A DNA stretch of 34,646 nt from Candidatus Omnitrophota bacterium (lineage in GTDB: Bacteria > Omnitrophota > Gorgyraeia > JABMRN01 > RBG-13-46-9). The notes under the pieces were generated by a model. The model was not told the origin of the DNA, made no database searches, and worked only from the letters and a program-made list of their open reading frames with translations. Below, one piece after another: positions 880-17,178 of the stretch (position 1 is its first letter; each line of letters starts with the position of its first letter). The DNA lies in NCBI GenBank assembly GCA_020346285.1, contig CP070780.1, positions 1,386,955 to 1,421,600 of the forward strand, written 5' to 3'. A program made the translations under genes and the position numbers.

Positions 880-3800
880 TTAGAGCGAGGTAGCAATGGC
901 TTTGCGATATTTCTGCCACTTTGCGATGTTTTCGAATACGATTGGCCTTATTTTGAGAGGATTTAAGATATCCAGTAATTGCTCCAGCGTAGAAATAACG
1001 GCGTTTTCTGATACCTGTTGCAGCAGTTTATTTATAGATTCAATAGCTGATTTTTGGTCATTTCCGTTATAATAAAATGCAACGTGCCGCGCTAAAGCGA
1101 CTCTAACTTCGATATCAGGATACTCGTTCTGCTCCGGATGTGAGTCAGTGTAGGCATCGGGAATAACAGTGATATATCCTTTTTCCTTGTATTGGTCTTG
1201 AGCTTGCTTCGCAAGTTGCGGGCCTATGTCGATTTGAGGGGCAAATAAGACAATCCTTCCGTTTTCAGGAAGTTGCTTGTGCGCATTATCCATGGCCTGT
1301 TCGTAATTCTTCCTTGTTTGTTCTGGATTCGCTACGTCTATTTCAAAGGTTATCACTTGATGGGTATCCCTTATATCTCCAAACCCGCTTCTTGCAAGGC
1401 CTCGGTTAATTACTCTAAGCGCCTGCTGGATTTGTGTTTGATTCATCTCCTTCGGCACGCCTACTACGGCTTTTACCGTATCGGCTTTACGGTTTATGGA
1501 GTTAAAGGCTTCAATGGTTTGAGCTTGGCGGGATTCTAAAATATTCTCAAACTTACCGTCATAGGTTGCGTCTGGATCGGTACTAGCATCTCGGCCACGT
1601 TCCGCATTATAATTGCCGATATAAGCTCTATAAACTGTTTTATCTACTCCAATCCCTTGATAAATAATTGTAAGGAGTTCATGCTCCAGAACTTTTTCTC
1701 TGACATCGGGAGTTTCGAGATGAGTGCTTGTTATGTTTGCTGTGTCAATACGATAAACGTCATTGGTCGTCTCATCTATAACGAATTGCTTTAAATGAGA
1801 ATCCCCGGCAACTAACCCAGCATTATGAAGAGCGCCTAGTATTCTTCCAAGGTTAGCCCCAACTGCAATGCGCCTGGAGTCCCCTTCAGAAGTTTTTTGA
1901 AACAATTGAATCAAGTTAGGGCCTATCCACTCTGAAACAAATAGAGCGATATAGCCAGCGCTACCTAATGAAGAAAATAAATAATTGGGCTTAATTCCTA
2001 AATCATCTTCTGCATTTCTATAATCTCTATAAGTTCTTAACTCTACAAGCTCAAACAAACCTTCTTGCGCCCCATTTCGGATAATCGATAGAACCTCTGG
2101 CCTAAGTCTTGTATTTTTACATAAAACTGCTTTATTTCTTGCAGCGCATTCATGAATATCAGGTACACTAACCGGTACATATACCTTATGAACTGGCGCT
2201 ATGGCCTTCTTGCCGCTTTTTGTCCTGGTGCGCAACGAGTTTATGTAATTTCTGCACACCCGTCGGTCAAGCGCAATACCTCGAACATGCACGTCCTGAT
2301 TTTGAAATTGGCCGCGATAACCATCAAGAAGTCTTTTTTCATCTATTTCTTCACCTTCACCGTACTCTAATTCTGCTACATCAATAGAGGCAAAATCCCT
2401 ATCAACTCGAGATCTTTCAGCTTGTGCAAACAAGCGTTCAAATTCCGCCAACTTTTCCGGATTCGATTTTAACGCTTCTTTAATTATATCCGCTTGATAA
2501 AAAAGACCTGTCTGCTTAAGATATTCGACTAATTGCGCGGGTGTGGTATCGCTCCTTTGCGCATACTTTGTTAAGGTTATAGGATCCATCCCGCCACCCA
2601 TGGGGGGTTCAATGTCTGTTGCGTAATTGAATATCCTTGTATCTCTATAAAGAGCTTCTTCAATAGATACAGGAGGTGGATTAGGCCTTTGTTCATATTG
2701 TATCTTCTGGGGTGCCTGCGACCAGTGTATTGTCTTTATTCCTATGGAAGAGGCGTATTTGAGGATTTCCCGTTCGAATTGATTTCTGTCGTAGGGGATG
2801 AATATATGCTGGTATATCTCTTCCACCAGCAAAACAGGTTTTCCGTCTTCCGTTGTTGTTTCAAGATGCGTCCTTGCAATAACAGTGTTTCCTATTAGAT
2901 ATTGAGCGAGTTTGAATTGGCCGTGTAATATGCGGTTTATGAGCTGGCCGTCTTTATTTTGAGCTGTTCTTGAGGTGGCTCTCTGGCATGTGGAATGTGG
3001 TTCTAACCCTGCTCTCATGAAGATATTTGAATCGGAAGTTATTCTGATTCTTGAAGCTTTCTTTAGTTCTTCCTCATCTATTCTCGCCGGCAGGAGGTTT
3101 CTTAAATCGGTTATAAGCTCTTTATTGAAAATACCTTTTCCCTGAGGTGAAGATATAAAGGCAAGGGCGATATTGACAACGTGCGCATCCGGAAGTTTCC
3201 CTTCTTTTAGCGAGGAGATTATATTAAGCAAAGCCTCTACCGCTTCTTCCAAATGCTCTTCTTTATGTTCTTGGGGTAATCTCTCCAGTTCATCTTCGGT
3301 CATATTCAAATGGAGCATTATCTGGGATAAGAGAGATTGGTAGGATATTTCTATTTCCTCCGGTTTCGGTTTTTCTATATAGTAGCTTTTGTCTTCTTTC
3401 CATTTATCGATGAATTCCTGGCTAAAGCCTTTTTCCCTCATCTTTTCATAGTGGACATTATCTTCTAATGAAGGCTTATCCCTATTCTTTGCCATGCCTA
3501 ATACAAGCTTTTTCAGGGATTCTTTGCCTTTTTGGGTAAAGAAGGCGGCTTGAACCACCACTCTCTCGAAGAACTTATCGTTTTGCCAGTATTCCTGGAA
3601 GTTCTCCATGCTACTGTTGAGAAGCGTTTCTTCCTCGTCGCTTAATGATAGAAGCGCCTTTAGTTTGGATGTGAGTATGCTTATCAGGGTTTTTCTCTCT
3701 CTTACAAGTTGTATTCTATTATTTTCTATCTCTGGTTTATATTCATCCATATATTCTTCCGGGAATGCGTTCAACAAAGAGATGTATCTGAAGAATCTCT

Positions 3801-6800
3801 TCAGGTCTTTTTCCCTGCCGGGGTTAAAACTGTTTAGGATGAGGTCGTATAAAGACTTTTCTATCTTCTCTTCGCCAAAGGTATTTATGAAGAATACGAG
3901 AAGTTCCTTCTTTCTTTCAAGATCAGATTCTATCTTGCCCTTCTTAAGCAAGCGGTTTAACGAATCTATGTCCTCTTTGAAGAAGATACCTGTTAAATCT
4001 AAAAATATAGAGAGTATTTCCTCATCGTTCATCTTTATACCCATTATCCGGTCTTTCAGGGAGTCGAAGTCATCTGTTATAAGATCTGTTATACATGAAA
4101 GCGTGTTAAGCAGCTTCTTTCTATCGGTTAATATATCGTTATCCCAATGGGGCATTCCAGGATATAGATATGAGAGGATAGCTAATGGTATATTGTGTTC
4201 TTTCTCTTCCTTATTTAAGATATCCTCTTTAATAAAATCCTTGAATTGATTGTATCTTTCTATATCTTGTTGGTCCAATTCCTTATCTCTTATATTCGAG
4301 GCAAAGAATAAAGAATTTATAATAGATGGGTTTTCTTTATTTAAAAATGAGTGCTTTGCTATTAAATCGCTTATTATTCTATCTGCCCTATTTGAAAATA
4401 GTTCAAATATGCTTCCGATACCACTTGTTGCCCCTATTTGGACATACGGATCAGGATCTTTCAGGGCTTTTTTGAGGAGGTTTTTTGCTTTTTTGGGCTT
4501 GTGTTGGAATATGCCTCCGATACTACATGCTGCTTCTTTTCGGACATTCGGCTCAGTATCTTTCAAAGTTTTTTTAAGGAGACTTTCTGCTTCTTTGGGG
4601 TTGTGTCGGAACATGCCTCCGATACTACTTGCTGCTCCTCTTCGGACATACGGATCAGGATCTTTCAGAGTTTTTTTAAGGAGACTTTCTGCTTCTTTGG
4701 GGTTGTGTCGGAACATGCCCCCAATACTACTTGCTGCTCCTTCTCGGACAGACGGATTCTGATCTTTCAGGACTTTTTTGAGGAGGCTTTCTGCTTCTTC
4801 GGGGTTGTGTTGGAACATGCCTTCAATACTACTTGCTGCTCCTTCTCGGACAGACGAATTCTGATCTTTCAGGGCTTTTTTGAGGAGTTTTTCTGCTTCT
4901 TTGGGGTTGTGTTGGAACATGCCTCCAATGCTACTTGCTGCTTTACTTCGGACGAGCCAATCACGCTTTTTCAGGGCTTTTTTGAGGAGTTTTTCTGCTT
5001 CTTTGGGGTTATGTTGGAATATGTCTGCAATACTACTTGCTGCTTCACTTCGGATGTACCAATCACGGTCTTTCAGGGCTTTTTTGAGGAGTTTTTCTGC
5101 TTCTTTGGGATTGTGCTGGAACATGCTTCCGATACTACCTGCTGCTTTTTTTCGGACATAGGAAAAATCAGACTTTTTCAGGGCCTCTTTGAGGAGTTTT
5201 TCTGCTTCTTCGGGGTTGTGTCGGAACATGCCTGCGATATTACTTGCTGCTTCTCTTTGGATATACGGATTAGGATCTTCCAGGACTTTTTTGAGGAACT
5301 TTTCTGCTTCTTCGGGGTTGTGTTGGAACATGCCTCCAATGCTACTTGCTGCTCTTTCTCGAACAGACGGATTCTGATCTTTCAGAGCCTTTTCTAATAA
5401 TAATTCTCCATCTAAAATAATGCCTGTAACTTCTGCGTCAGTAAGGGCACGAGGCAATGTTTCGGTGGTTTCTCTGGCCTGTGCAAACAAGCGTTCAAAT
5501 TCCGCGTCTTCATTGCCAGCTGCTAAAATCACATCTTCTTCCTCTTCATGCTCTTCATAGATATCCTCTATACCATCGATAGCGTAGGATTCTATGAGCT
5601 TTTTTATCTGTTCGATTCTTAATCTCTCGCTTAGATAAATATCTTTGGATGCCACTTTAAACAGATATCGGCCTATAATACCTCTCTTAAAAGTATTTCT
5701 TGCCGTTATCATTTTATTCATGGAAGATTTCGCTGCGGCAGGTTCGAACCCCGCTTTTACCGTTAAAAATAAACCGAGCTCATCAGGAATGGTTTCCGCA
5801 TCATGCGATAATATTATACGTTCCCTTATCTTTTCCATCTCCCCTCTTAATTTCTGGTTGGGTATGAATATATCGCAGATAATTCTTAGAATATCCCAGA
5901 CAAATTTCAGGGCTCGAATAAACCGTCTGGGCATAAGATATCTCATCTTACCTATTTTAGAAATTCTTCCGTCCCAGTCTTTCCTATTTGAAATAATCTC
6001 TTGAAAATGAGCGAGCTCATGGCCAAGGGCATAGGCAACTTCATCATCATTCAAAAGCTCTGCCGTACTTTGCGGGATTCCTATAATAAGCCCGCCGTCT
6101 TTAGTGATAGCTACAAAGGGGCTTGCTGTGAGTTTTTCGTAAACAAAAAAAGATACTTCTTTAATTTCTTTTAAATCTACGCCATATCGTTCTAAAAATT
6201 TATCTTTATATTCCTCGCTCTGCGCAGCCTGTACGAGCATGGCTCCGATTCTTTCAATTCTTCCCTGCTGTATAGTAAATCTACATTTTAAGCTTGCATA
6301 AATCCAATCGATAGAAGGCGCTTCTCTATCCCATTTTTTAGCTAATCGCTGCGCTAATCCTGTGCCTTCATTATTAGAATTTTCCCTAATCCAGCTTCTC
6401 ATCTCTTGATGGCTAAAATCTACCTTTTTCCTGAAGCTTTCCCATTTGCCTATCTCATATAATTCATGCGCTTTAACAAATTTGAGTGCGTTTTTAGTAA
6501 AAGAACTATCAGCATATATTACAGGTTCGCCATAATATTGGCCTAACCCAATATGTCCTAACAAACCTGTTTTTCTAATGAATGCTTTTATAGGAATTGC
6601 AATTTGGCCTGTATTGTCTCTGTATCGTTCGAGTACCTGTTTTTTTGCTCCAGCTGGCAAGGACCGGAAGTTCTTTAAGTCATCCGGTAACCCCTCCTCT
6701 ATCGCTTTATGGATATCATCATGTTTAGACTTTCTATATTTTCCAGCCGCTAACGCTACGTCTTCTTCTTGACCTTCCGCTTGATCTGTTGCAGTTGGTT

Positions 6801-9800
6801 TTCTATCTACTATGTCAATATTTTGGGGAGCTACATGTAAAATGGCTTTTTCATAAAACCCAAAATCTTTTTGGTTTATTCCTCTGATAGCCATGTTTTC
6901 AAATACTATGCCTTGTTCATCAAGAATAGGTTGTATTCTTTCAATCCACATTATTTTAATCTTACTCTGAACTTTTTTAACATGGTGCCAGCCAAAACGT
7001 TCGGCAATATCTCTTTTTCTTGGTGAAAATGCAAATACCTTCCCGTTCCATGGGGTGCGCATTCGGAACATAGCTGTCTCTGATTCCATTAAGATATCCT
7101 TATGGATATAATTCGCGCTGTGCTGCACAAGGCCTTCAAAAACTTGATATAAATCCATGCCACCGGTTGCAGTTTTCGATATTATGTCCAAGATTTCCAT
7201 GTAATACTGCCCTTGTCTTTTATATAATTCAAACTGTAATATAGCTTTCCCTTCCGGTACAAGGTCTTGGTCATATACCGGCAAATATTCATTGGTTGAT
7301 TCAAATATAACTTTAATACCGCCGTCTTGGGAAAGCGACATTTCTCCCCGGACAACTACCTGATTAAAAGAAGGAAGATATTCGCCAAACAAATTTTCAA
7401 ATTGTTTCTTTGCGGGAGGTTCTTGAGTATGCCTATCGCTTATTAGCAAAGCTTTGTCTAAAAACGCATTAATCTGTCGGATTATTGTATCAGGTAATTG
7501 CCCGGCTCTTATTGGCATATGAGTGCCTTTAGATTGGAAGCCGTCGGTTTTACTCAAATTTAGATTCATTTTTTCTGTTAATGTAACATAAAGAATATCT
7601 TGAATGACGGCAGTATTGACTATATCATCTTCGGCTAATTTTCTTTTTATTTCTTTTTCAACATAGTCAAAGGCCTTTTTTACTTTGAATTCGATTCTTA
7701 ACTCTCCTAATGCCTCTTTTAGCCTCTTTTTATCTTTCTCCGGGGCGCCTTTTCGCGGATCTGCCCTGCTCTTAATCCCATCGATAATCGCGGTTATTTC
7801 TTCCTCTGTGGCTCTTAAAATAATATAGTCCATATTGGAAAGAACCGGCTGAAGCTGTATATCCAGGTTAAGTTTGAACAAAGCCTTGGTAATAGCCTTT
7901 CTTTCCCCTTTTTCTAAGTTCCATAACATGGCTTCTGCTTTGGATTCTTGGTTTACCTCTTTCTTTTTTGTTTCTTTTGTTGAGTCCTCCTGCATCTCGG
8001 GGAACATTTGTTTCTTCAATACTATAGCCCCTTGATTGGTAAAAGACCAATCACCGTTTCCACTGCATTTCCCAAAATCATAATACAAGGGCCCAAAAAA
8101 GATTGCCTCTTTAGTAACGGTTATTGACCGGGTAGCACCAATATTATATCTCTCTGCAAATTTTCTGCCGCCGATGCGGTCGCTTTCTGGTAATTTGGGC
8201 AGAATAACTGCCGGAGTAACCCTTGAAAGGGCCATCCACGCTTTAAGCCAGGCCTTCTCAAGATCAAGGTCAGTCCTCGTGTTATATGCGCCAAAAACCA
8301 CCACACCTTTATCCGTCAGCGCTAATACCGCGTTAGCGAACATTGTCCCGCTTTCATCATAGACTAAAGCAAAAAAACTGTTTGCTTCTAATGCGTGAAC
8401 TATAGGCATTTCGCGGTGTAATCCGTTAGGCGAAAAGCATCCCGGAACGCCTACCCCGGCATTTGCTTCTTCTACAAAGTCCTTTTTAATAACTATTCTG
8501 ACCTTTGTAGGGGCAGTCGCTTTTACTTTATCTTTGCTGTCTTCTGCTTTTTTGATATTTGCGAGAATTTGTCCAATCCTGCTTAATTGCTCTTGAGCTA
8601 ATGGCCTTCCGGAAAGATCTTTTTTCATTTGCTCGGTAAACTCTTTGGCATCATTATACGTAAAAAATTTCATCTGTGACAACTCTTGCGCGCTTATCCC
8701 TTCCGGCTGGTATTTTAACTGTTCGGCTATTTCTATTATTTCATGAGAAATTTGCGCAATATTTTCCCTTATCTGCTCAAGTTGCATAGCTTCCGACAGC
8801 GGTAATATTTCTGTTTCTACCTTAACGCCTTCTTTCCAAAGGCTTTCACTATAGCCTGCCTTCTTTAATTTACTTATTTGCCCCTTGTTTTCTTTTTCAG
8901 CCAGAAGGATTTTTTGAACAGCATTTTTGTCGCCCTTGGACTTCTGATATTTGGTAAGAAGCTTCCGTATTTTTCCCCTCATCCTTTCCCTGTCCGCATA
9001 CGACCCGCCACTATGTCTTGAAAGATTGAAATAAAGATTGCAAATCGTCAATAATTTAGATGTTATGCCTTCATCGCTTAGCATGGCCTCATCTATAGCC
9101 CCTATACCCGTAATTTGTCCGAAAAGCTGCGCCATAAAACGATTTTCAATAGCGGCCATTTCGCCGGGGGTCTGTTTTTCATCAAAACCTTTTCGTAAAA
9201 TCGAATTTATCTCTGAAATTCTACTTTTCAAAATATCTTTAATCTCCGCAGCCAGGCGAGAGTCCGCATTTTTTGCGGCAATATTGCCGATATGCTTCAA
9301 GGTCTTTATCTTTGCCTTTAAACTCCGCTTGCCTTGTTTTGCGCCAATAGCGCCACTTTCGATTTTAAGCATCTTCTGAAGCGGAGCGACTTCTATTATA
9401 TGCTCGGAAGACACGAGGATATTCGTAAAAGTATTCAGGTCATAAATTAAATCTCGTATACCTGTTTTTAAAATACCGAGGCAAAATTCCCGAGCTGTTT
9501 TCTCCCTTATTCCGTACACGTTCATTTTACCAAACAGGCTAAAAACCAAAGAAAAAGCACTTAAGCTTGATACCCAGCCCCTTATGCATTTGCTATCCAT
9601 AGCTAAAACTTCCGGTAATATCTTGCTTGAGCTGAAATTGCTTAATATTCCAAGGTACCCCGTTTTTTCCTCGAAAGACCACCCTTTCATTTGGCTCTTA
9701 AAAATAGCAAAAATCTTTGAATCAATACCTACTACATCGAAAAACTTAACCCATTTAACAAAAACCTGATAGTTACCTTGTGAAAGAAACTCGTCTAACG

Positions 9801-12800
9801 CTTCATGTCCTAAGATTTCCCTAAAAATCGGCATGTAAACGCGCAATTTATCAGATTCTTCATTTACCAGTTTAATTAAATTTTGAGATACATTTTCTGC
9901 AAATTCAAAACGCTTGTTTTCTCCAAAAATGGCATTGACCTTTTCGGATAAAATTCCAGTATAGTTATTTTGCAGATATGTATCTATGGCGCGGGGGGCT
10001 GCTTTTATCATGCTTAAAATAACCTTTATAACCTTCTCGCCGAACATAGACCGAAGATTTTTTAAGTTTTCAAAAAATGTTTTGTTAAAAAGCTTGTTAA
10101 TCAACTTTAGCTCTTCATCTGTAATCTGAACTACATAAAAGCCACCTTGCAGGGGTTTTTTAGAAATAATGCCGAGTGTGCTGTCGATATTTTCTTCTTC
10201 TAAAACGAGAAACGCCCTCAAACTTTCGCCGTCAATAAAATCAGATATCGGATGCCCCTCTATTCTTTTTTCATCTTCCGGGTAGCACCTTTCCCATCCT
10301 ATAATTTTTTTAACTATTTCTTCAGAAAGACTATTTAACCTGGCAACCTCGGTTTCATTTGACAGCATATCAATCAGCGCTTTAACTGACTTCTGGTCTC
10401 TTTTTTCAATGTAACCATGGAATGCATGGATAAGAAAGTTATTCAATTCGACCGAGGATATTCTGCCTAAAACATCCAATAGAGATTTTCTAATAGCTGC
10501 GGTTTCATCCCATAAGACACTTTCGCTTAAATGTGGATAGGCGAGAATTTTTAAACTTTCGGGATGGATTTTTCTAAAAAGTTCTATATTGTCGATAAAA
10601 GCTTTAAAATTAAATGACCGAGATTCCGATATCTTTATCAAAAATTCAGCCAACTGGTATCCATAAGGTAAGCGATTAGTCGCATGAGTCGCGCCGACTG
10701 GCAAATCACGGATTCTACGGCTAAAGTTATGCGGGAATATTTTGGGCGGAAGCTTTACGCCACTTCTTTTGTCCTCCCGAATAAGTTGTATTATTTTATT
10801 ATAGATCTCATCCGAACTTAATAGCTCCGGATTATATCTTGCCGCAAGTATATATAACTGGCCCATATAAGGCGACTCTGCATAAAGCGTCCTGCATTTT
10901 GTAATATCAATTTTTTCTTTCAGCAAAGCAGGTTTTCCTGAAATCATAGTCATGATTTCTATGGCGAAACCTTCCGGCTCTTCAAGCAGAAACTTTTCAT
11001 ACTGCTCCTTAAATTTGGATAAAATAGATTTTTCATTTGAGGCAAAACGAACTATGTAAGCCTGTGCCAAATTCTTTGAACGAGCGGCAAGGGAAACAAC
11101 AAATTCAAAATTATCCTCGATGCTCAAATAACTGCCAAATTCTATATATTTTGATACTGCCTCTATCAGGTCTTCTTTGAGCTCATTATCCCGTATCCTT
11201 GCGTTTATTTTATCTATAATGTTAAAATCCTTGCCGGTATTTAAAAATTCCACGCTAACATGCGTGAGCAGCGCATTTTGGTCTGCTGAAGCATCTGAAA
11301 GAAGGCTAATAAGTTTTTTTCTTGTATCATTATTTAAAAGAAGTTCTTTAAATTTCTCTTCCGCCAGTTTTTGCTGCAATAATTCAAAAATTTTTACATC
11401 TCTTGCTACCGCGAGAATCTCTGCCACAGGAACCGAATACAAAATATCACGGACAGGATTATTTATAATGCGCGCGTCATCCACATATTTCTTTCTGACT
11501 TCCGGCAAGATTTTAACGAAATCGGATATAAAAACCGGCTCCATAATTGCATAAATAAATGTCTCACCTGTGGGAACAAAATTTAAAGTGTCTTTTTCTT
11601 TTTGCGCATATCTCTTTGCCGCATTTGCTAATTTAAGGAAATCCCGCGCGGTATCAACATCTTTACCGGCCATATCAATAATTATTTTCAATGCTTTATC
11701 CGTTGTTAACCCGATGCTGTGTTGCCCTAATCCGATAAACGCGTCCGCATATTCTTCTCCTACGCCCAAGCCGGAAATCTGGGCTAGCTTTTTGATAAAG
11801 ATTTCGTCTTTGATATAACGTTCAAATTCTTGCGGGAAATATGCGATAATTTTTAGTAGGGGGTTAAGCAATGGCCCATAAGAATTATATAGGTAGATTA
11901 TTGGTTCACTTAAAAGCTTTTTTAAAATATCCGGAGTCATTTTATCCATGAAATAATTCGAATTCCCGTATATATATCCGGCAAAACCGGCCCGGTTTTC
12001 CGGACTCAATTTCCGGAAATTATCAAGAAGGCCTTCTTTTTTAAGAAGTTCCGGGACATCCTTGCCTAAACCTGTTAACCTGAAATAATTTATCATTGAT
12101 TCTGTAGCTTTTTTATCATCCCCTTTATAAGCAAGAGTCTCTTCCAAAACGTTGGCAGTAAAAAAGGGATTACGATAATTTTCATCATGAAGATATTCTT
12201 TATTTTGTTTTGAATGGTATATAGAAGCATAATCTATATATAGTTTTACAGCATGCGGTGACCCCAGGTTTAGGATTTTATCCGCGTTCTCTATCATAAA
12301 TTTAATACCTTGAGGATCGGAAAGAACGCCCCAAGTTTTATCCTCAACGGCTATTCCAAAGAGTTTAAAAAGGATTAGATTGGCTTCCTTACGTTTTCCT
12401 CTTTTTCCGCCATAGAGCCGGGCAATATCAGATGCCAAATCTAAAAACTTTTCGTCAATAAGAACATAAAACTGGTCTGACGGCATTCCTGTTTCAAGAT
12501 CCAGCGTTTTGTTCAAAATAAACAGATAATCTTTAATAAATTCGCCCATGGCTTCCATCTGTTTGCTATAACCCCTTAGTGGTATTAAAAAATAAGGATA
12601 TTCACAAGCCCAATAAAGATCATAAACATCAAAATTAAGCTTAGTCATAAATAACAAATCTTTAGCTTCTACCTTGAGTATTTTTCCGTCATCTAACGTA
12701 ATAGATTTACGGTCAGCATAATATCTCTTCGCTTCATCCAGATGTTCAACGGAATCCCCGGAGATTAAACCCAACAACATCTTTTCTTTTTCCAAAATTC

Positions 12801-15800
12801 CAGCTATAAAAGGCGTATCTTTGGATAACAGGCCGCTTGTAATAACCTCCTGTATATCAAGTTCTTCGTCTATAGCGTTCTTTATGTCCTTCTCAAGCAA
12901 TTCCTTTTCGACTTTTTTTCCGGTTAATCCTGTCTCATGAGAAAGCTCATGTTTAAGGCCGATTTTTAGAAGTTTTTGAGCGGTTTGGGGGGCAGAGCCA
13001 AGTTTTTCAAAAAGCGACCGGTGAATACCTATAAAGCCGTTAGCCAGATGGTCCTCAAAAAGATATCCGGCTGTGTCAAGAACAGAAACTACCAATTCTT
13101 TTTGTTTTATCGGCCGGGCTAAAATTTCATTTGCGAAAAAATCATTAAGAAACGCTAAAAACGAATTTTTATCCTTAAATCCGAAGGCCTTGTGTTGTTT
13201 CGTGAGGTCGTTATCAATAAAAACGGTTGTATCATCAATGCTAACCCTCGATGAACCGCGTTTAACACTTTCTTTAATCCTACCTATATCCCTAACCCCA
13301 TTCTTAGAAATCGATTGGGGATTTTCAAGAGGCATGCCTTCGGCATGAGCGAATGAAGGTGGCGGGATATATTGCAATGTAATTATCTCATTATTCTCTA
13401 TATCTACCCTTATCCATCGAGAGCTGCTCAATCCCTCCAAACGATTATAGAGCTCTATGTCTACAAATCCGTCCATAAGCCCGTCTTCGTCCACTAGCCT
13501 AATATCGTTGTAATATATATTTCTGAAATCCAATCCATCGAATATCTCGCTAATTCTATCTTTTTCATCAACTATAATTGCAAAAGCGTCGCTTATCATT
13601 TTCTGCGCTTGTGCTTTCGGACTATCTTCCCCTTCAAAATGGCACACGGTTCGCCAGGTAATCTCATAAGTTAAGGCCTCCCCCTCAAGGAGAATCATAT
13701 CAGGATTTTCGATATGTAATCTCTCGTGGGCTATCTTATACGCGAGCCAGGCAATCCTCTCGTCTCCTTCCCATCTCTGCGAAGCATCTAATCCAACAAC
13801 AATAATGCCCAAATCCGTAAATGCCTGGGCATAGTTGTCTTTATCCAGCCCTTCTAAAAACAAAACAGGATATGTCGTGCCACTGCCGATATCGGCATCG
13901 TTCAGTTCATCATAAGCACGGAGGACTAATTCCTGATACTCATCAGAGTTAGATATTTCAATGGAACGTGTTATGCCCTCCATTGTCACGTCGTGCGCGT
14001 ATTCTAAATAGGCCAATAAATAAGGCGCGAAATCCGCAGGTACAATGGTGCTTCCTGCTATGGCAACTTCTTCAAATGGAACAGGGGCAGGACTTGTTCC
14101 GCCACAATAGGCCAAAAAGGGCATTAACCCAAGAATAAGAGAAATTTTCATGCTTGATTTCAGCTTTGCCAAAATTTTGCCCTTTAAACCACGGCGCGGT
14201 TTAAAGCTCTTAGGAAGTATTATTGGCGGTTCGGTATGGAATAGAGTTGCTGTAGCATATGATTTGCTTAGCGCCGGCCCGGAAGCGGGAGGGCGTTTTG
14301 CCCATATACCAGTTAACCCTAATCCCCTCTCTTGTATCGATTCCAATTTATATAATCCCGCTACATCCCGTTGGTTTGACATGTTAAGCATAAGCAGGCC
14401 GTATTCATTTAAATAGACAATGGCTCTGTCTATCCAGGCAGAAGATAAATCCTTTGGTATTCCTTTTTCAATATATAAATCATAACCATTTTTCAGTTCG
14501 TTAGGGAAATAATTACGCGCATCTGTTCTATATAAAATTATCTGCCTTTTGCCGCCATTATAATTGTAAGTGAATACTAACTTTTCAAATTGTTCTTTTG
14601 TAGCATCATTTTGTATAGTATAAACTTCTGTATCAACATCTGACGCGCCTTTACATGCCAATATCTCGGTTACATAGTGATCTTGCAGGTATCTTGTGGG
14701 GCCGTCTTGAGGATCCACCCCGACTATCGTCTCTGCATCAGTAGATTCAATCGCTACTTTAGCATCAAAGCCGATCCCGGGATAATAAGCGATACGGATT
14801 CCGCCTGGCTTATGCTTTCTTATCAAAGCGCTGAAATAGGTTATAATTCTTTCGCTACCGGACGCATTAATCATATGTATCTGTTGGGCAAAAAAGTTTG
14901 TTAGTTTTTTCATGCCAAGATATTTTGCGATTTTAAAGCCGACGCGGCGGATAGCAGTTCTTAGCCGAGTGATTAGCAGTAGAAAGGAAAGTGCGCTGGC
15001 AAATATCTTAGTATTAATCTTTGCTTTGGTGCCGGACAGCCCTTTGGCTTCGCCCGGGACGGGCAATGAGGTTTTGAATTGGGTGTAAGCGGGTCTTGTC
15101 GGCAATGTTATTCCGGCGGATCGGGCAAGCGCTGCTATATCCAGTTCTGTGGCCGGGTCCGCTATTTTGCCTTCCTCAACCTGCCTTCGCCATTCTGCCA
15201 GCAATCTGCACACCAGCGCTTGCTCTTCTCCGTGCATGCCTGTGCAAAGCGCGGGGTCGCTTAAAAATGTAGCGATGGCAAGGGATGAATGCAATGCTTT
15301 CTGCAATTTCGCAATCATTGAATTCGGTTTAGCGCCCAAGAGTTCGAAATACGGGCTTTTATAGGCGGTCCCATTTTTAAAATTCGGCATAATTGAAATG
15401 TAAGAGATGTTATTTCTTTTAAACAGCTCACACAGATTTTCGGTGTGGAAGCCGCCTGCGACAAGAATGGTAATTTGAGGCTGTCTCGCCTGTCTAACGG
15501 GTATCGAATATCTGGTATTTCTTAGAAATACCGAATCTCTTTTAAGCGAATATTCGTAAAATTCGGCAAGGTTTTCACGGTAATCATTAATTTCATCTAT
15601 GTTATCATCAAGTTTCGCCGTTATTTTATGTAACGGTGCTTGTTTATCGATGAACGCTACATAGTTTTGCGCATCGAATGTTTTTTTGTTTTTCTTGTAA
15701 TACGCGTAGTCGTCACTTGTTAAAGAAACGTTAAAAATGTTTCTTGTCAGGGCAAGGTTTTTGGAAAGGAGATTAAGTTCTTTTTGCGTGCCGTTCTTGT

Positions 15801-16938
15801 ATAAAGAATCTTTAATCCTGTTTTCAAGCGTATCCATTTCCTCCATTACCTCGAATTTATCAATGGCGTCGTACATGGATATATAAACTATATATTTTTT
15901 AAGTTCGGAATATTTGCTTAGGTCCAAATTCATCGATTTTGCTTTTTTGACAAGATATGCATAGAAGTCTTTTTGCGAGATTTGTTCTGCCTTGAATGCC
16001 ACTGTTTTCTGAACGAGTTCCTCGATGTCGTTTTTGGAGAGCATTTTTTCGAATTCGTCAATGAGGCGATTTCGTTCCATGTTGGCGGTTTTAAAATTTA
16101 TATCATCTTCCTGTTTTAATGACTGGTGAAGGAGGTATATATTCGTGAGCGTTTTTATATCGATTGCCTTTTGGCCTGCTTTCCGGATTAGGTAGGCAAG
16201 GTAATCTTTGAATTCGAGTTTTCCCTGTTTATAACCGGTGTATTTTCGGTCAAGCGCAAGAAGTTCGGCGCTATATATGTGGCGTTTCAGGTTTGAAATG
16301 ATATGGTCGAGTCCTTTTAAGTATTTTTCTATCGTGCCTTTGTGCTTAAGCGAGTCCTTGTAGACATTGAAATTCCTAAGATAAAGCTCTGTATTTTCAA
16401 CGCCCCAAAGATGCGCTTTATCGGGATTATTTATGGCGAAGTATTCGGCGCCGTTAACAAGGCCTTCCTTTACAAAGTAATCTACCACCTTTTTTCTTAT
16501 ATCTTTATCCTGAATCCTCGTAAAAACGGACAGGTCGTATTCGCCTTTTCCGCCTTCGAGATTAACTACTTTTATTCCGTATCTTTTATGAAGATATTCG
16601 ATTATATCGGCTATTTTGTGCTGTGCCGCGTAATTGCAATGAGCATCCTGGATATGAACGATAACCTTGCCGGAATCCGCCTTATGCATGTCTTTAATAT
16701 GCCCGAGGTATTGGGGCAGGGTAAATGTATTGACATTAAGCTCTTTGAAAGGACCCGGGCCGCCGGCCCTATCAGAGCCGACGCGAGCAGGCTCTAAGGG
16801 CGTTCCGGCAGCCCAGGCTTTTTCGAGAAGTATATCGGGTCCTACGGTATTAAACAAAAAAGACCATATAGTGATAAATACAATTATCCCCTTATATGGT
16901 CTTTTAGCTATCCAACTATTGAATCTCGCGTCTTTCAT
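880..16938 (-). CDS. Giant multidomain exported protein, 5352 aa
   Basis: One uninterrupted frame codes for about 600 kDa. I do not recognise a named family for the whole. Visible parts: basic n-region plus hydrophobic stretch 17-33 and AWAA (41-44), a Sec signal or anchor; a domain at about 90-520 with HIQDAH (H100), NLEGG (E128) and AGGFH (H498), reminiscent of the EreA/ChaN/TraB group; a possible Rossmann methyltransferase at about 700-870; a buried lipoprotein-like signal (930-945); HERLH at 1071 and HELSH at 1330; a long helical stretch to about 2700; HELYE at 3491; an M48-like unit with HELAH (3640-3644) and E-x-x-P-D (3715-3719); ten HEAT-like repeats (3847-4187); a TCQ-motif domain (about 4640-4750); a kinase-like loop (H5038, D5046, D5065). 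Start is the ATG at 16938 with a weak GGA Shine-Dalgarno. A surface or cell-contact role is inference only. Confidence 0.9.
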   Translation of the reverse strand: MKDARFNSWIAKRPYKGIIVFITIWSFLFNTVGPDILLEKAWAAGTPLEPARVGSDRAGGPGPFKELNVNTFTLPQYLGHIKDMHKADSGKVIVHIQDAHCNYAAQHKIADIIEYLHKRYGIKVVNLEGGKGEYDLSVFTRIQDKDIRKKVVDYFVKEGLVNGAEYFAINNPDKAHLWGVENTELYLRNFNVYKDSLKHKGTIEKYLKGLDHIISNLKRHIYSAELLALDRKYTGYKQGKLEFKDYLAYLIRKAGQKAIDIKTLTNIYLLHQSLKQEDDINFKTANMERNRLIDEFEKMLSKNDIEELVQKTVAFKAEQISQKDFYAYLVKKAKSMNLDLSKYSELKKYIVYISMYDAIDKFEVMEEMDTLENRIKDSLYKNGTQKELNLLSKNLALTRNIFNVSLTSDDYAYYKKNKKTFDAQNYVAFIDKQAPLHKITAKLDDNIDEINDYRENLAEFYEYSLKRDSVFLRNTRYSIPVRQARQPQITILVAGGFHTENLCELFKRNNISYISIMPNFKNGTAYKSPYFELLGAKPNSMIAKLQKALHSSLAIATFLSDPALCTGMHGEEQALVCRLLAEWRRQVEEGKIADPATELDIAALARSAGITLPTRPAYTQFKTSLPVPGEAKGLSGTKAKINTKIFASALSFLLLITRLRTAIRRVGFKIAKYLGMKKLTNFFAQQIHMINASGSERIITYFSALIRKHKPGGIRIAYYPGIGFDAKVAIESTDAETIVGVDPQDGPTRYLQDHYVTEILACKGASDVDTEVYTIQNDATKEQFEKLVFTYNYNGGKRQIILYRTDARNYFPNELKNGYDLYIEKGIPKDLSSAWIDRAIVYLNEYGLLMLNMSNQRDVAGLYKLESIQERGLGLTGIWAKRPPASGPALSKSYATATLFHTEPPIILPKSFKPRRGLKGKILAKLKSSMKISLILGLMPFLAYCGGTSPAPVPFEEVAIAGSTIVPADFAPYLLAYLEYAHDVTMEGITRSIEISNSDEYQELVLRAYDELNDADIGSGTTYPVLFLEGLDKDNYAQAFTDLGIIVVGLDASQRWEGDERIAWLAYKIAHERLHIENPDMILLEGEALTYEITWRTVCHFEGEDSPKAQAQKMISDAFAIIVDEKDRISEIFDGLDFRNIYYNDIRLVDEDGLMDGFVDIELYNRLEGLSSSRWIRVDIENNEIITLQYIPPPSFAHAEGMPLENPQSISKNGVRDIGRIKESVKRGSSRVSIDDTTVFIDNDLTKQHKAFGFKDKNSFLAFLNDFFANEILARPIKQKELVVSVLDTAGYLFEDHLANGFIGIHRSLFEKLGSAPQTAQKLLKIGLKHELSHETGLTGKKVEKELLEKDIKNAIDEELDIQEVITSGLLSKDTPFIAGILEKEKMLLGLISGDSVEHLDEAKRYYADRKSITLDDGKILKVEAKDLLFMTKLNFDVYDLYWACEYPYFLIPLRGYSKQMEAMGEFIKDYLFILNKTLDLETGMPSDQFYVLIDEKFLDLASDIARLYGGKRGKRKEANLILFKLFGIAVEDKTWGVLSDPQGIKFMIENADKILNLGSPHAVKLYIDYASIYHSKQNKEYLHDENYRNPFFTANVLEETLAYKGDDKKATESMINYFRLTGLGKDVPELLKKEGLLDNFRKLSPENRAGFAGYIYGNSNYFMDKMTPDILKKLLSEPIIYLYNSYGPLLNPLLKIIAYFPQEFERYIKDEIFIKKLAQISGLGVGEEYADAFIGLGQHSIGLTTDKALKIIIDMAGKDVDTARDFLKLANAAKRYAQKEKDTLNFVPTGETFIYAIMEPVFISDFVKILPEVRKKYVDDARIINNPVRDILYSVPVAEILAVARDVKIFELLQQKLAEEKFKELLLNNDTRKKLISLLSDASADQNALLTHVSVEFLNTGKDFNIIDKINARIRDNELKEDLIEAVSKYIEFGSYLSIEDNFEFVVSLAARSKNLAQAYIVRFASNEKSILSKFKEQYEKFLLEEPEGFAIEIMTMISGKPALLKEKIDITKCRTLYAESPYMGQLYILAARYNPELLSSDEIYNKIIQLIREDKRSGVKLPPKIFPHNFSRRIRDLPVGATHATNRLPYGYQLAEFLIKISESRSFNFKAFIDNIELFRKIHPESLKILAYPHLSESVLWDETAAIRKSLLDVLGRISSVELNNFLIHAFHGYIEKRDQKSVKALIDMLSNETEVARLNSLSEEIVKKIIGWERCYPEDEKRIEGHPISDFIDGESLRAFLVLEEENIDSTLGIISKKPLQGGFYVVQITDEELKLINKLFNKTFFENLKNLRSMFGEKVIKVILSMIKAAPRAIDTYLQNNYTGILSEKVNAIFGENKRFEFAENVSQNLIKLVNEESDKLRVYMPIFREILGHEALDEFLSQGNYQVFVKWVKFFDVVGIDSKIFAIFKSQMKGWSFEEKTGYLGILSNFSSSKILPEVLAMDSKCIRGWVSSLSAFSLVFSLFGKMNVYGIREKTAREFCLGILKTGIRDLIYDLNTFTNILVSSEHIIEVAPLQKMLKIESGAIGAKQGKRSLKAKIKTLKHIGNIAAKNADSRLAAEIKDILKSRISEINSILRKGFDEKQTPGEMAAIENRFMAQLFGQITGIGAIDEAMLSDEGITSKLLTICNLYFNLSRHSGGSYADRERMRGKIRKLLTKYQKSKGDKNAVQKILLAEKENKGQISKLKKAGYSESLWKEGVKVETEILPLSEAMQLEQIRENIAQISHEIIEIAEQLKYQPEGISAQELSQMKFFTYNDAKEFTEQMKKDLSGRPLAQEQLSRIGQILANIKKAEDSKDKVKATAPTKVRIVIKKDFVEEANAGVGVPGCFSPNGLHREMPIVHALEANSFFALVYDESGTMFANAVLALTDKGVVVFGAYNTRTDLDLEKAWLKAWMALSRVTPAVILPKLPESDRIGGRKFAERYNIGATRSITVTKEAIFFGPLYYDFGKCSGNGDWSFTNQGAIVLKKQMFPEMQEDSTKETKKKEVNQESKAEAMLWNLEKGERKAITKALFKLNLDIQLQPVLSNMDYIILRATEEEITAIIDGIKSRADPRKGAPEKDKKRLKEALGELRIEFKVKKAFDYVEKEIKRKLAEDDIVNTAVIQDILYVTLTEKMNLNLSKTDGFQSKGTHMPIRAGQLPDTIIRQINAFLDKALLISDRHTQEPPAKKQFENLFGEYLPSFNQVVVRGEMSLSQDGGIKVIFESTNEYLPVYDQDLVPEGKAILQFELYKRQGQYYMEILDIISKTATGGMDLYQVFEGLVQHSANYIHKDILMESETAMFRMRTPWNGKVFAFSPRKRDIAERFGWHHVKKVQSKIKIMWIERIQPILDEQGIVFENMAIRGINQKDFGFYEKAILHVAPQNIDIVDRKPTATDQAEGQEEDVALAAGKYRKSKHDDIHKAIEEGLPDDLKNFRSLPAGAKKQVLERYRDNTGQIAIPIKAFIRKTGLLGHIGLGQYYGEPVIYADSSFTKNALKFVKAHELYEIGKWESFRKKVDFSHQEMRSWIRENSNNEGTGLAQRLAKKWDREAPSIDWIYASLKCRFTIQQGRIERIGAMLVQAAQSEEYKDKFLERYGVDLKEIKEVSFFVYEKLTASPFVAITKDGGLIIGIPQSTAELLNDDEVAYALGHELAHFQEIISNRKDWDGRISKIGKMRYLMPRRFIRALKFVWDILRIICDIFIPNQKLRGEMEKIRERIILSHDAETIPDELGLFLTVKAGFEPAAAKSSMNKMITARNTFKRGIIGRYLFKVASKDIYLSERLRIEQIKKLIESYAIDGIEDIYEEHEEEEDVILAAGNEDAEFERLFAQARETTETLPRALTDAEVTGIILDGELLLEKALKDQNPSVRERAASSIGGMFQHNPEEAEKFLKKVLEDPNPYIQREAASNIAGMFRHNPEEAEKLLKEALKKSDFSYVRKKAAGSIGSMFQHNPKEAEKLLKKALKDRDWYIRSEAASSIADIFQHNPKEAEKLLKKALKKRDWLVRSKAASSIGGMFQHNPKEAEKLLKKALKDQNSSVREGAASSIEGMFQHNPEEAESLLKKVLKDQNPSVREGAASSIGGMFRHNPKEAESLLKKTLKDPDPYVRRGAASSIGGMFRHNPKEAESLLKKTLKDTEPNVRKEAACSIGGIFQHKPKKAKNLLKKALKDPDPYVQIGATSGIGSIFELFSNRADRIISDLIAKHSFLNKENPSIINSLFFASNIRDKELDQQDIERYNQFKDFIKEDILNKEEKEHNIPLAILSYLYPGMPHWDNDILTDRKKLLNTLSCITDLITDDFDSLKDRIMGIKMNDEEILSIFLDLTGIFFKEDIDSLNRLLKKGKIESDLERKKELLVFFINTFGEEKIEKSLYDLILNSFNPGREKDLKRFFRYISLLNAFPEEYMDEYKPEIENNRIQLVRERKTLISILTSKLKALLSLSDEEETLLNSSMENFQEYWQNDKFFERVVVQAAFFTQKGKESLKKLVLGMAKNRDKPSLEDNVHYEKMREKGFSQEFIDKWKEDKSYYIEKPKPEEIEISYQSLLSQIMLHLNMTEDELERLPQEHKEEHLEEAVEALLNIISSLKEGKLPDAHVVNIALAFISSPQGKGIFNKELITDLRNLLPARIDEEELKKASRIRITSDSNIFMRAGLEPHSTCQRATSRTAQNKDGQLINRILHGQFKLAQYLIGNTVIARTHLETTTEDGKPVLLVEEIYQHIFIPYDRNQFEREILKYASSIGIKTIHWSQAPQKIQYEQRPNPPPVSIEEALYRDTRIFNYATDIEPPMGGGMDPITLTKYAQRSDTTPAQLVEYLKQTGLFYQADIIKEALKSNPEKLAEFERLFAQAERSRVDRDFASIDVAELEYGEGEEIDEKRLLDGYRGQFQNQDVHVRGIALDRRVCRNYINSLRTRTKSGKKAIAPVHKVYVPVSVPDIHECAARNKAVLCKNTRLRPEVLSIIRNGAQEGLFELVELRTYRDYRNAEDDLGIKPNYLFSSLGSAGYIALFVSEWIGPNLIQLFQKTSEGDSRRIAVGANLGRILGALHNAGLVAGDSHLKQFVIDETTNDVYRIDTANITSTHLETPDVREKVLEHELLTIIYQGIGVDKTVYRAYIGNYNAERGRDASTDPDATYDGKFENILESRQAQTIEAFNSINRKADTVKAVVGVPKEMNQTQIQQALRVINRGLARSGFGDIRDTHQVITFEIDVANPEQTRKNYEQAMDNAHKQLPENGRIVLFAPQIDIGPQLAKQAQDQYKEKGYITVIPDAYTDSHPEQNEYPDIEVRVALARHVAFYYNGNDQKSAIESINKLLQQVSENAVISTLEQLLDILNPLKIRPIVFENIAKWQKYRKAIATSL
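2423..2448 (-). repeat. Copy 2 of a 26-bp exact repeat inside the giant gene
   Basis: These 26 bases are identical to 5480-5505. Both lie in the same reading frame and code for the core of a shared EFERLFAQA motif (residues about 4831-4839 here). It marks the junction between a helical region and the module that contains the kinase-like domain. Confidence 0.85.
4378..5400 (-). repeat. Ten tandem 34-residue HEAT-like repeats (102-bp DNA period)
   Basis: Ten consecutive units of 34 residues (one of 35) cover residues 3847-4187 of the giant protein. Each follows the pattern LLKKALKD, then a variable VR pair, AASSIGGMF, HNPEEAE. The arrangement of two helices with a D-x-x-x-x-V-R turn is typical of HEAT repeats, which form curved protein-binding scaffolds. 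At DNA level adjacent units are close to identical; for example 4568-4617 and 4670-4719 match over 50 bases. This implies recent expansion or gene conversion and a region prone to length change. The last unit is degenerate. Confidence 0.9.
5480..5505 (-). repeat. Copy 1 of a 26-bp exact repeat inside the giant gene
   Basis: Identical over 26 bases to 2423-2448, in frame, coding for the FERLFAQA junction motif at residues about 3812-3820. It lies between the M48-like module and the HEAT repeats, just after an EEDVILAAG linker that also occurs in a similar form (EEDVALAAG) at about residues 3390-3400. Confidence 0.85.
14104..14151 (-). other. Lipoprotein-type signal peptide buried in the giant protein
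   Basis: Residues 930-945 read Met-Lys, a hydrophobic run, then a lipobox LAYC followed by GG and a Pro/Ser/Thr-rich tail. This is the layout of a bacterial lipoprotein signal peptide, with Cys945 as the would-be lipidated residue. It sits 929 residues inside an open frame, so it is either the fossil N-terminus of a formerly separate lipoprotein gene or a real internal start. No clear Shine-Dalgarno precedes the internal ATG at 14151. Confidence 0.65.
14182..14206 (-). other. Perfect hairpin in coding DNA just before the buried lipoprotein start
   Basis: Nine-base arms (14182-14190 and 14198-14206) with a 7-base loop form a perfect inverted repeat. It lies about 30 bases upstream of the internal Met codon at 14151 and would look normal in an intergenic spacer. 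On the mRNA it is followed by an A/U-rich stretch. It may be the remnant of a terminator or leader from before the two genes fused. Confidence 0.55.
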
Positions 16939-17076: not shown

Positions 17077-17105
17077 AGTATACCTTACTTATACAATAAT
17101 ATCAA
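17077..17105 (-). promoter_or_regulatory. Sigma70 promoter for the giant gene
   Basis: On the minus strand TTGATA (17100-17105) and TATACT (17077-17082) stand 17 bases apart, one mismatch each from consensus. The predicted start is near 17070. It lies after the hairpin that ends the ribosomal operon, so the giant gene is expected to be a separate and potentially strongly transcribed unit. Confidence 0.75.
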
Positions 17106-17153: not shown

Positions 17154-17178
17154 TTGTTCGAGGTTCGACCTCGAACAA
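17154..17178 (-). terminator. Hairpin at the end of the ribosomal superoperon
   Basis: Perfect 10-base arms (17154-17163, 17169-17178) with a 5-base loop begin 8 bases after the rplQ stop. The following bases on the minus strand are ATTTGATTCC, so the U-run is short. Position and stem strength suit an operon terminator. As DNA it is also a clean palindrome, so a repeat family is an alternative. Confidence 0.6.

Follow-up and report, generated by a model that had tools for sequence, protein, structure and literature searches.

A 5,352-residue Omnitrophota protein belongs to a phylum-wide family of giants with a common head, a common C-terminal tag and differing middles

The DNA analysed here is a stretch of 34,646 nucleotides from contig CP070780.1 of a Candidatus Omnitrophota bacterium (assembly GCA_020346285.1), the whole of which we call the window. 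Between rplQ and an aminotransferase gene it carries one giant gene of 16,059 bp on the minus strand (880-16938), which starts with ATG at 16938 and encodes 5,352 amino acids without an internal stop. The product is a member of a large, uncharacterised family found across the Omnitrophota, whose proteins have a common head, a common tag at the C-terminal end and differing middles. The coordinates of all features are given in Table 1.

At the base composition of the window a stop-free run of this length would arise by chance with a probability of about 10^-118. The other five reading frames across the gene hold 173-461 stops, and the guanine-plus-cytosine content by codon position is alike over nearly the whole gene. 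There is no N in the window, so the giant frame is not a scaffold join. A preliminary description had read the 16 kb as a single frame of 5,352 residues and had named an assembly join of separate genes as what would speak against it; the single frame stands and no join was seen. The bacterium's own 1.43-Mb genome, deposited as one record, contains paralogous giant frames, several of which, unlike this one, span gaps of 100 N. At five loci (L020, L021, L022, L023 and L024) such gaps interrupt or adjoin giant frames. Frames that read through them are artefacts, among them an apparent fusion of the RecA C-terminus to a paralogue at 118-122 kb, which has 100 N at the junction.

The conserved head occurs in 173 of the 384 Omnitrophota genomes sampled, often several times per genome and in frames of up to 12,701 residues; relatives with the same head have open reading frames (ORFs) of more than 30 kb. 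Residues 57-567 are also found in the paralogous giant frames of the own genome. In the genome collection, each of the best 79 head loci carried a title naming Omnitrophota or a member of that phylum. The head was absent from the plasmids searched and was matched by one of 2.9 million contigs in the viral collection, which argues against a mobile or viral origin, and the head-bearing giant is probably not a viral gene. The one viral-collection contig (L252, 17 kb) is perhaps a misassigned cellular contig.

All 47 aligned heads have D-x-H (E-x-H in one of them), a glutamate exactly 28 residues on from the histidine, and GGFH. In head numbering the constellation is D/E42, H44, E72 and H442. These residues and their spacing agree with those of RRSP (E3900-x-H3902, E3930 and H4030) and Bcr135 (H85/E113), which follow the Tiki-superfamily pattern (PMC6254334). 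The predicted model of the head is confident (mean predicted local distance difference test score 88.8) and has a small alpha/beta core interrupted by a helical insert of about 300 residues. Foldseek listed three low-ranking Ere-family chains (E 0.3-1.3) among what was otherwise mostly coiled-coil noise, and 9 of the 47 heads weakly matched Pfam ChaN (best E 0.007). A profile search of the head against PDB gave nothing significant, and NCBIfam has no model for the head or for the C-terminal domain. As Foldseek gave no significant PDB match, the Tiki assignment draws on the motif, its spacing and these Ere-family and ChaN matches. The head thus appears to be Tiki-like by its constellation, with a putative hydrolase-type set of residues intact, in keeping with the EreA/ChaN/TraB-like domain described earlier.

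The signal or anchor described earlier is also present, as a hydrophobic segment at residues 18-36 followed by AWA. All 107 family frames whose upstream sequence is in view have a hydrophobic segment ahead of the head. In about 20 members (for example L080, L082, L083, L084, L092 and L106) a short DARSN-like motif stands before the signal segment; MKDARFN, at window position 16938, is the giant's own version, and the motif is possibly part of an extended signal region.

At the other end, most giants finish with a tag of about 30 residues with the consensus LxIxPIDxxxI...VLxSL-COOH. We scored it with a position matrix built on the final 30 residues, leaving one out at a time, with a threshold score of 4. 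This score was reached by 54 of 61 head proteins whose stop is in view and by 15 of 639 control gene ends; among the best-scoring controls are several 5'-truncated frames. The tag is confined to the terminus: in 54 of 55 proteins the terminal window scored above every internal window. The signal persisted when proteins were grouped by similarity of the sequence ahead of the tag and entire groups were left out of the training. Across 59 whole genomes, large frames account for most of the strong matches (E <= 1e-3); the own genome yielded just two, one in this protein and one in its 2,464-residue paralogue. Many head-bearing genomes had no tag match below the threshold, and a per-genome comparison of tag and head is too weak to use. 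Variant tag ends occur in two large frames (L201 and L205) that have a signal segment of their own and no head. The modelled C-terminus is an alpha/beta domain followed by the tag as a strand and a low-confidence helix. A PDB profile search found no significant match to the C-terminal domain, and there is no hydrophobic span at the giant's C-terminus.

Between these ends the family is a mosaic. Other giants contain modules of this protein too, each time singly or in small sets and in other contexts; these include the zincin-like modules, whose HExxH is conserved, the HELYE module, the kinase-fold module, and the HEAT block together with its neighbour. Other interiors hold protein kinases, ABC1 kinases, GHKL ATPases, phosphohexomutases, GNAT and M48 domains and a MafB19-type deaminase. 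Past residue 745 or so the module order of this protein was found in no sampled genome, and the order itself is therefore not the informative feature. The preliminary description knew of no described family with this order; the protein is nevertheless not unique, being one member of a phylum-wide family. Stretches related to the giant also lie in frames of 42,913, 25,332, 18,052 and 14,198 residues (G079, G037, G069 and G386).

Three HExxH motifs are present in the giant, where shuffled sequences gave an expectation of 0.15 (p about 0.001). They are conserved in the aligned homologues of the first two zincin modules and in most of those of the third. Over the full protein, Pfam matched with confidence the HEAT repeats alone. 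These are encoded by 9.6 copies of a 102-bp tandem repeat (4409-5393) whose copies are 83% alike in DNA, hence recent. Nearly all of the top Foldseek matches to the kinase module were kinases of proteins (probability up to 1.00, E 2e-4 to 1e-3); the module has GD-H and RID motifs and weak Bud32 matches, and is placed by its fold in the protein kinase superfamily as Bud32-like, with a catalytic D and a DFG-like D. The zincin motifs, HEAT-like repeats and kinase-like loop of the preliminary description were thus all recovered. The possible methyltransferase was not confirmed: residues 690-925 or so have no Pfam match and at most weak similarity to L208 and L143. A second hydrophobic segment lies at residues 930-948.

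The gene order ahead of the giant is S13-S11-S4-rpoA-L17, so that it does, as had been proposed, directly follow the main ribosomal operon. The same site varies among relatives. The aminotransferase gene follows rplQ directly, with no giant gene between, in a genome of the same genus (G197), and also stands directly after rplQ in two of the same family (G409 and G312) and in a more distant one (G151). G413 has just one short opposite-strand ORF between the two, and in G254 the genes after rplQ differ. In an order-level relative, G403, a head-bearing giant gene again follows rplQ; its first 815 or so residues align to residues 8-745 of ours with 41% identity, entering the methyltransferase-like stretch, and there the G403 contig ends. 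A whole giant gene is thus present or absent at one site, so the gene is either gained and lost in one piece or ancient, with frequent losses. The strong promoter of its own that had been claimed is only partly upheld. The promoter-like TTGATA-17-TATACT is there, at 17105-17077, but in a consensus scan such sites occur near chance frequency. The giant gene that follows rplQ in G403 likewise has a promoter-like site of its own, TTGACA-17-TATACT. The REP (repetitive extragenic palindrome)-like sequence TTCGAGGTCGAACCTCGAA and its variants have many copies in the genome, and a reversed control pattern has none.

Table 1. Features of the giant gene and its upstream region, in window coordinates
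Feature	Residues	Position	Strand	Remarks
Giant open reading frame, 5352 aa		880..16938	-	no internal stop; no N
Sec-type signal segment ending AWA	1-45	16804..16938	-	N-terminal MKDAR-N motif as in other members
Conserved head, Tiki (TraB/EreA/ChaN/RRSP)-like core	57-567	15238..16770	-	D98, H100, E128, H498 constellation
Hydrophobic segment, then RLRTAIRR	639-663	14950..15024	-	similar segment at matching place in G403 giant
Rossmann/methyltransferase-like stretch, unconfirmed	~690-925	14164..14871	-	weak similarity to L208, L143
Zincin-like module 1, HERLH at 1071	997-1185	13384..13950	-	HExxH also conserved in three other giants
Zincin-like module 2, HELSHE at 1330	1196-1383	12790..13353	-	in at least 5 other giants, HExxHE kept
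Region almost without relatives	1384-2630	9049..12789	-	
Unknown-fold module	2633-3368	6835..9042	-	common to L071, partly L209
HELYE-motif module, opens with linker EEDVALAAG	3391-3552	6283..6768	-	widespread in other giants
M48/M56-like zincin, HELAH at 3640	3561-3811	5506..6258	-	weak Pfam M48/M56; homologue L203
HEAT repeats	3841-4180	4399..5418	-	Pfam HEAT_2 E 1.5e-24; tandem array 4409-5393
Module accompanying HEAT repeats in three other giants	4181-4781	2596..4398	-	
Bud32-type kinase-fold module, GDSHLKQ ... RIDTAN	4845-5085	1684..2406	-	
C-terminal alpha/beta domain	5134-5322	973..1539	-	common to exact C-termini of other giants
C-terminal tag DILNPLKIRPIVFENIAKWQKYRKAIATSL-COOH	5323-5352	883..972	-	
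Promoter-like TTGATA-17-TATACT		17077..17105	-	consensus scan; near chance frequency
REP-like palindrome, possible rplQ terminator		17154..17178	-	

Common ends with differing middles suggest a built-in export or delivery system for interchangeable enzyme modules. We give about even weight to the view that the giants are a modular effector family in which the export ends stay constant while the enzyme cargo can be exchanged. A Sec-type signal would carry the chain over the inner membrane, and a sorting or secretion machine would recognise the C-terminal tag and take the protein to the surface of the cell or deliver it into another. Head and interior enzymes might then modify proteins or the envelope of the target cell. 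In this giant the cargo would be the three zincin-type modules, the HEAT scaffold and the kinase-fold domain. Domains that need ATP, nucleoside triphosphates or acetyl-CoA lie behind a signal peptide, which would make the cytoplasm of another cell the most sensible end point. In at least two giants a kinase catalytic loop is present with no predicted membrane span between it and the head. The architecture, its conservation, the modular build, the confinement of the tag to the terminus and the presence or absence of the whole gene at one site among relatives are results; we infer export beyond the inner membrane, the role of the tag, enzymatic activity and delivery into a partner cell. The narrower proposal, that Omnitrophota have an undescribed sorting or delivery system which recognises the tag and puts giant effectors, combined from several interchangeable enzymes, onto or into other cells, is more tentative.

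Several points weigh against an effector family. No secretion machine for the giants was identified, and their export is putative. Predicted membrane spans follow the head in some members, whose tails could therefore be cytoplasmic. Foldseek gave the head no PDB match at E <= 0.001. Seven of the 61 complete-looking head frames fall below the tag threshold, at least one of which spans a scaffold gap. The kinase-fold module has Q where the Mg-binding N is usual, and several interior modules could be inactive.

It is possible, though unlikely, that the giant is instead an inner-membrane receptor, with a periplasmic sensor or hydrolase head and a tail that residues 639-663 turn back to serve, partly or wholly, as a cytoplasmic signalling scaffold. 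That segment carries RLRTAIRR on its C side, as the positive-inside rule would have it, and the G403 gene has a similar one. ATP- and NTP-dependent tail domains would make sense in the cytoplasm, and exactly one predicted span precedes two of the family's kinase loops. Yet in many members no span follows the head, two giants carry kinase loops that no span precedes, and in this protein the second hydrophobic segment could return the chain outward.

We think it rather less probable that the giant serves as a coat or adhesin and forms a structural layer, with its enzyme-like domains mostly decayed and the tag as its anchor to the cell surface. Adhesion and coat roles have been proposed for giant Omnitrophota ORFs (PMC10066038), and most interior regions have no recognisable domain. 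However, Pfam found no adhesin-type domain in the giant, the HExxH and head constellations are conserved, and other interiors of the family hold recognisable catalytic domains. Constant export ends with variable enzyme cargo favour an effector family over a coat, and the earlier preference for a modular enzyme or effector over a simple adhesin is the better reading.

Cleavage of the chain into separate enzymes after export, at linkers such as EDVxLAAG, seems improbable: large frames contain the linker [DE][VILM][AVIN]LAAG 9 times where 0.11 would be expected, and it adjoins module borders in this giant, but it is found in only 6 of 144 large frames and may just travel with one module. That several genes were joined in assembly, as the gap-spanning paralogous frames of the own genome might suggest, is very improbable given the gap-free window, the uniform coding signal, the family head and family tag at opposite ends of a single frame, and the colinear G403 relative at the same locus over about the first 800 residues.

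If the giants are indeed a modular effector family, their variable interiors offer an inventory of the enzymes sent out by these tiny, possibly host-dependent bacteria. Giant Omnitrophota ORFs have been described as poorly conserved and difficult to interpret; a common catalytic-type head and a common tag make many of them one tractable family, recognisable by profile. The tag also offers a way to search for the sorting machinery by co-occurrence and to test where the proteins are localised.

Giant Omnitrophota ORFs of more than 20 kb have been called poorly conserved (Seymour et al. 2023, PMC10066038), and giant multi-domain Omnitrophota proteins, with a proposed role in predation, appear in a paper on lipocones (PMC12419801). 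The passages seen of these two papers describe neither a shared head nor a shared C-terminal tag, and we found no report of either in a search that lay outside preprints and most subscription papers. Our protein resembles the ORFs of Seymour et al. in its phylum, its giant multi-domain build and its few annotated domains, and predation or symbiosis was proposed for those; at 16 kb it falls short of their size limit of more than 20 kb.

Like the cargo of Bacteroidota type IX secretion, the giants have a conserved C-terminal region on otherwise diverse, putatively exported proteins; their C-terminus is modelled as an alpha/beta domain with a short strand-helix tag and not as an immunoglobulin-like beta-sandwich. 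It also differs from sortase and PEP-CTERM signals in having no hydrophobic span. With polymorphic toxins (contact-dependent inhibition, Rhs) the giants share a constant N-terminus, diverse cargo and module exchange, but in the giants the C-terminus is constant and the middle varies, and no immunity-type gene was seen next to this one, whose neighbours are rplQ and the aminotransferase gene. The head resembles the Tiki superfamily (TraB/PrgY, EreA/B/C, ChaN, PMT C2 and RRSP) in its acidic-x-H, the glutamate after 28 residues and the second histidine near the end of the alpha/beta core. It differs in its helical insert of about 300 residues, in giving no significant fold or profile match, in the signal ahead of it and in fronting a long protein. 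MARTX (multifunctional autoprocessing repeats-in-toxin) proteins have different ends and another kind of C-terminal tag, and the giant has no Pfam match to their RTX repeat or cysteine protease. They too, however, are giant exported chains with several effector-type domains, one of which, RRSP, has the Tiki fold and shows that such a domain can serve as an effector within a giant modular toxin (PMC6254334).
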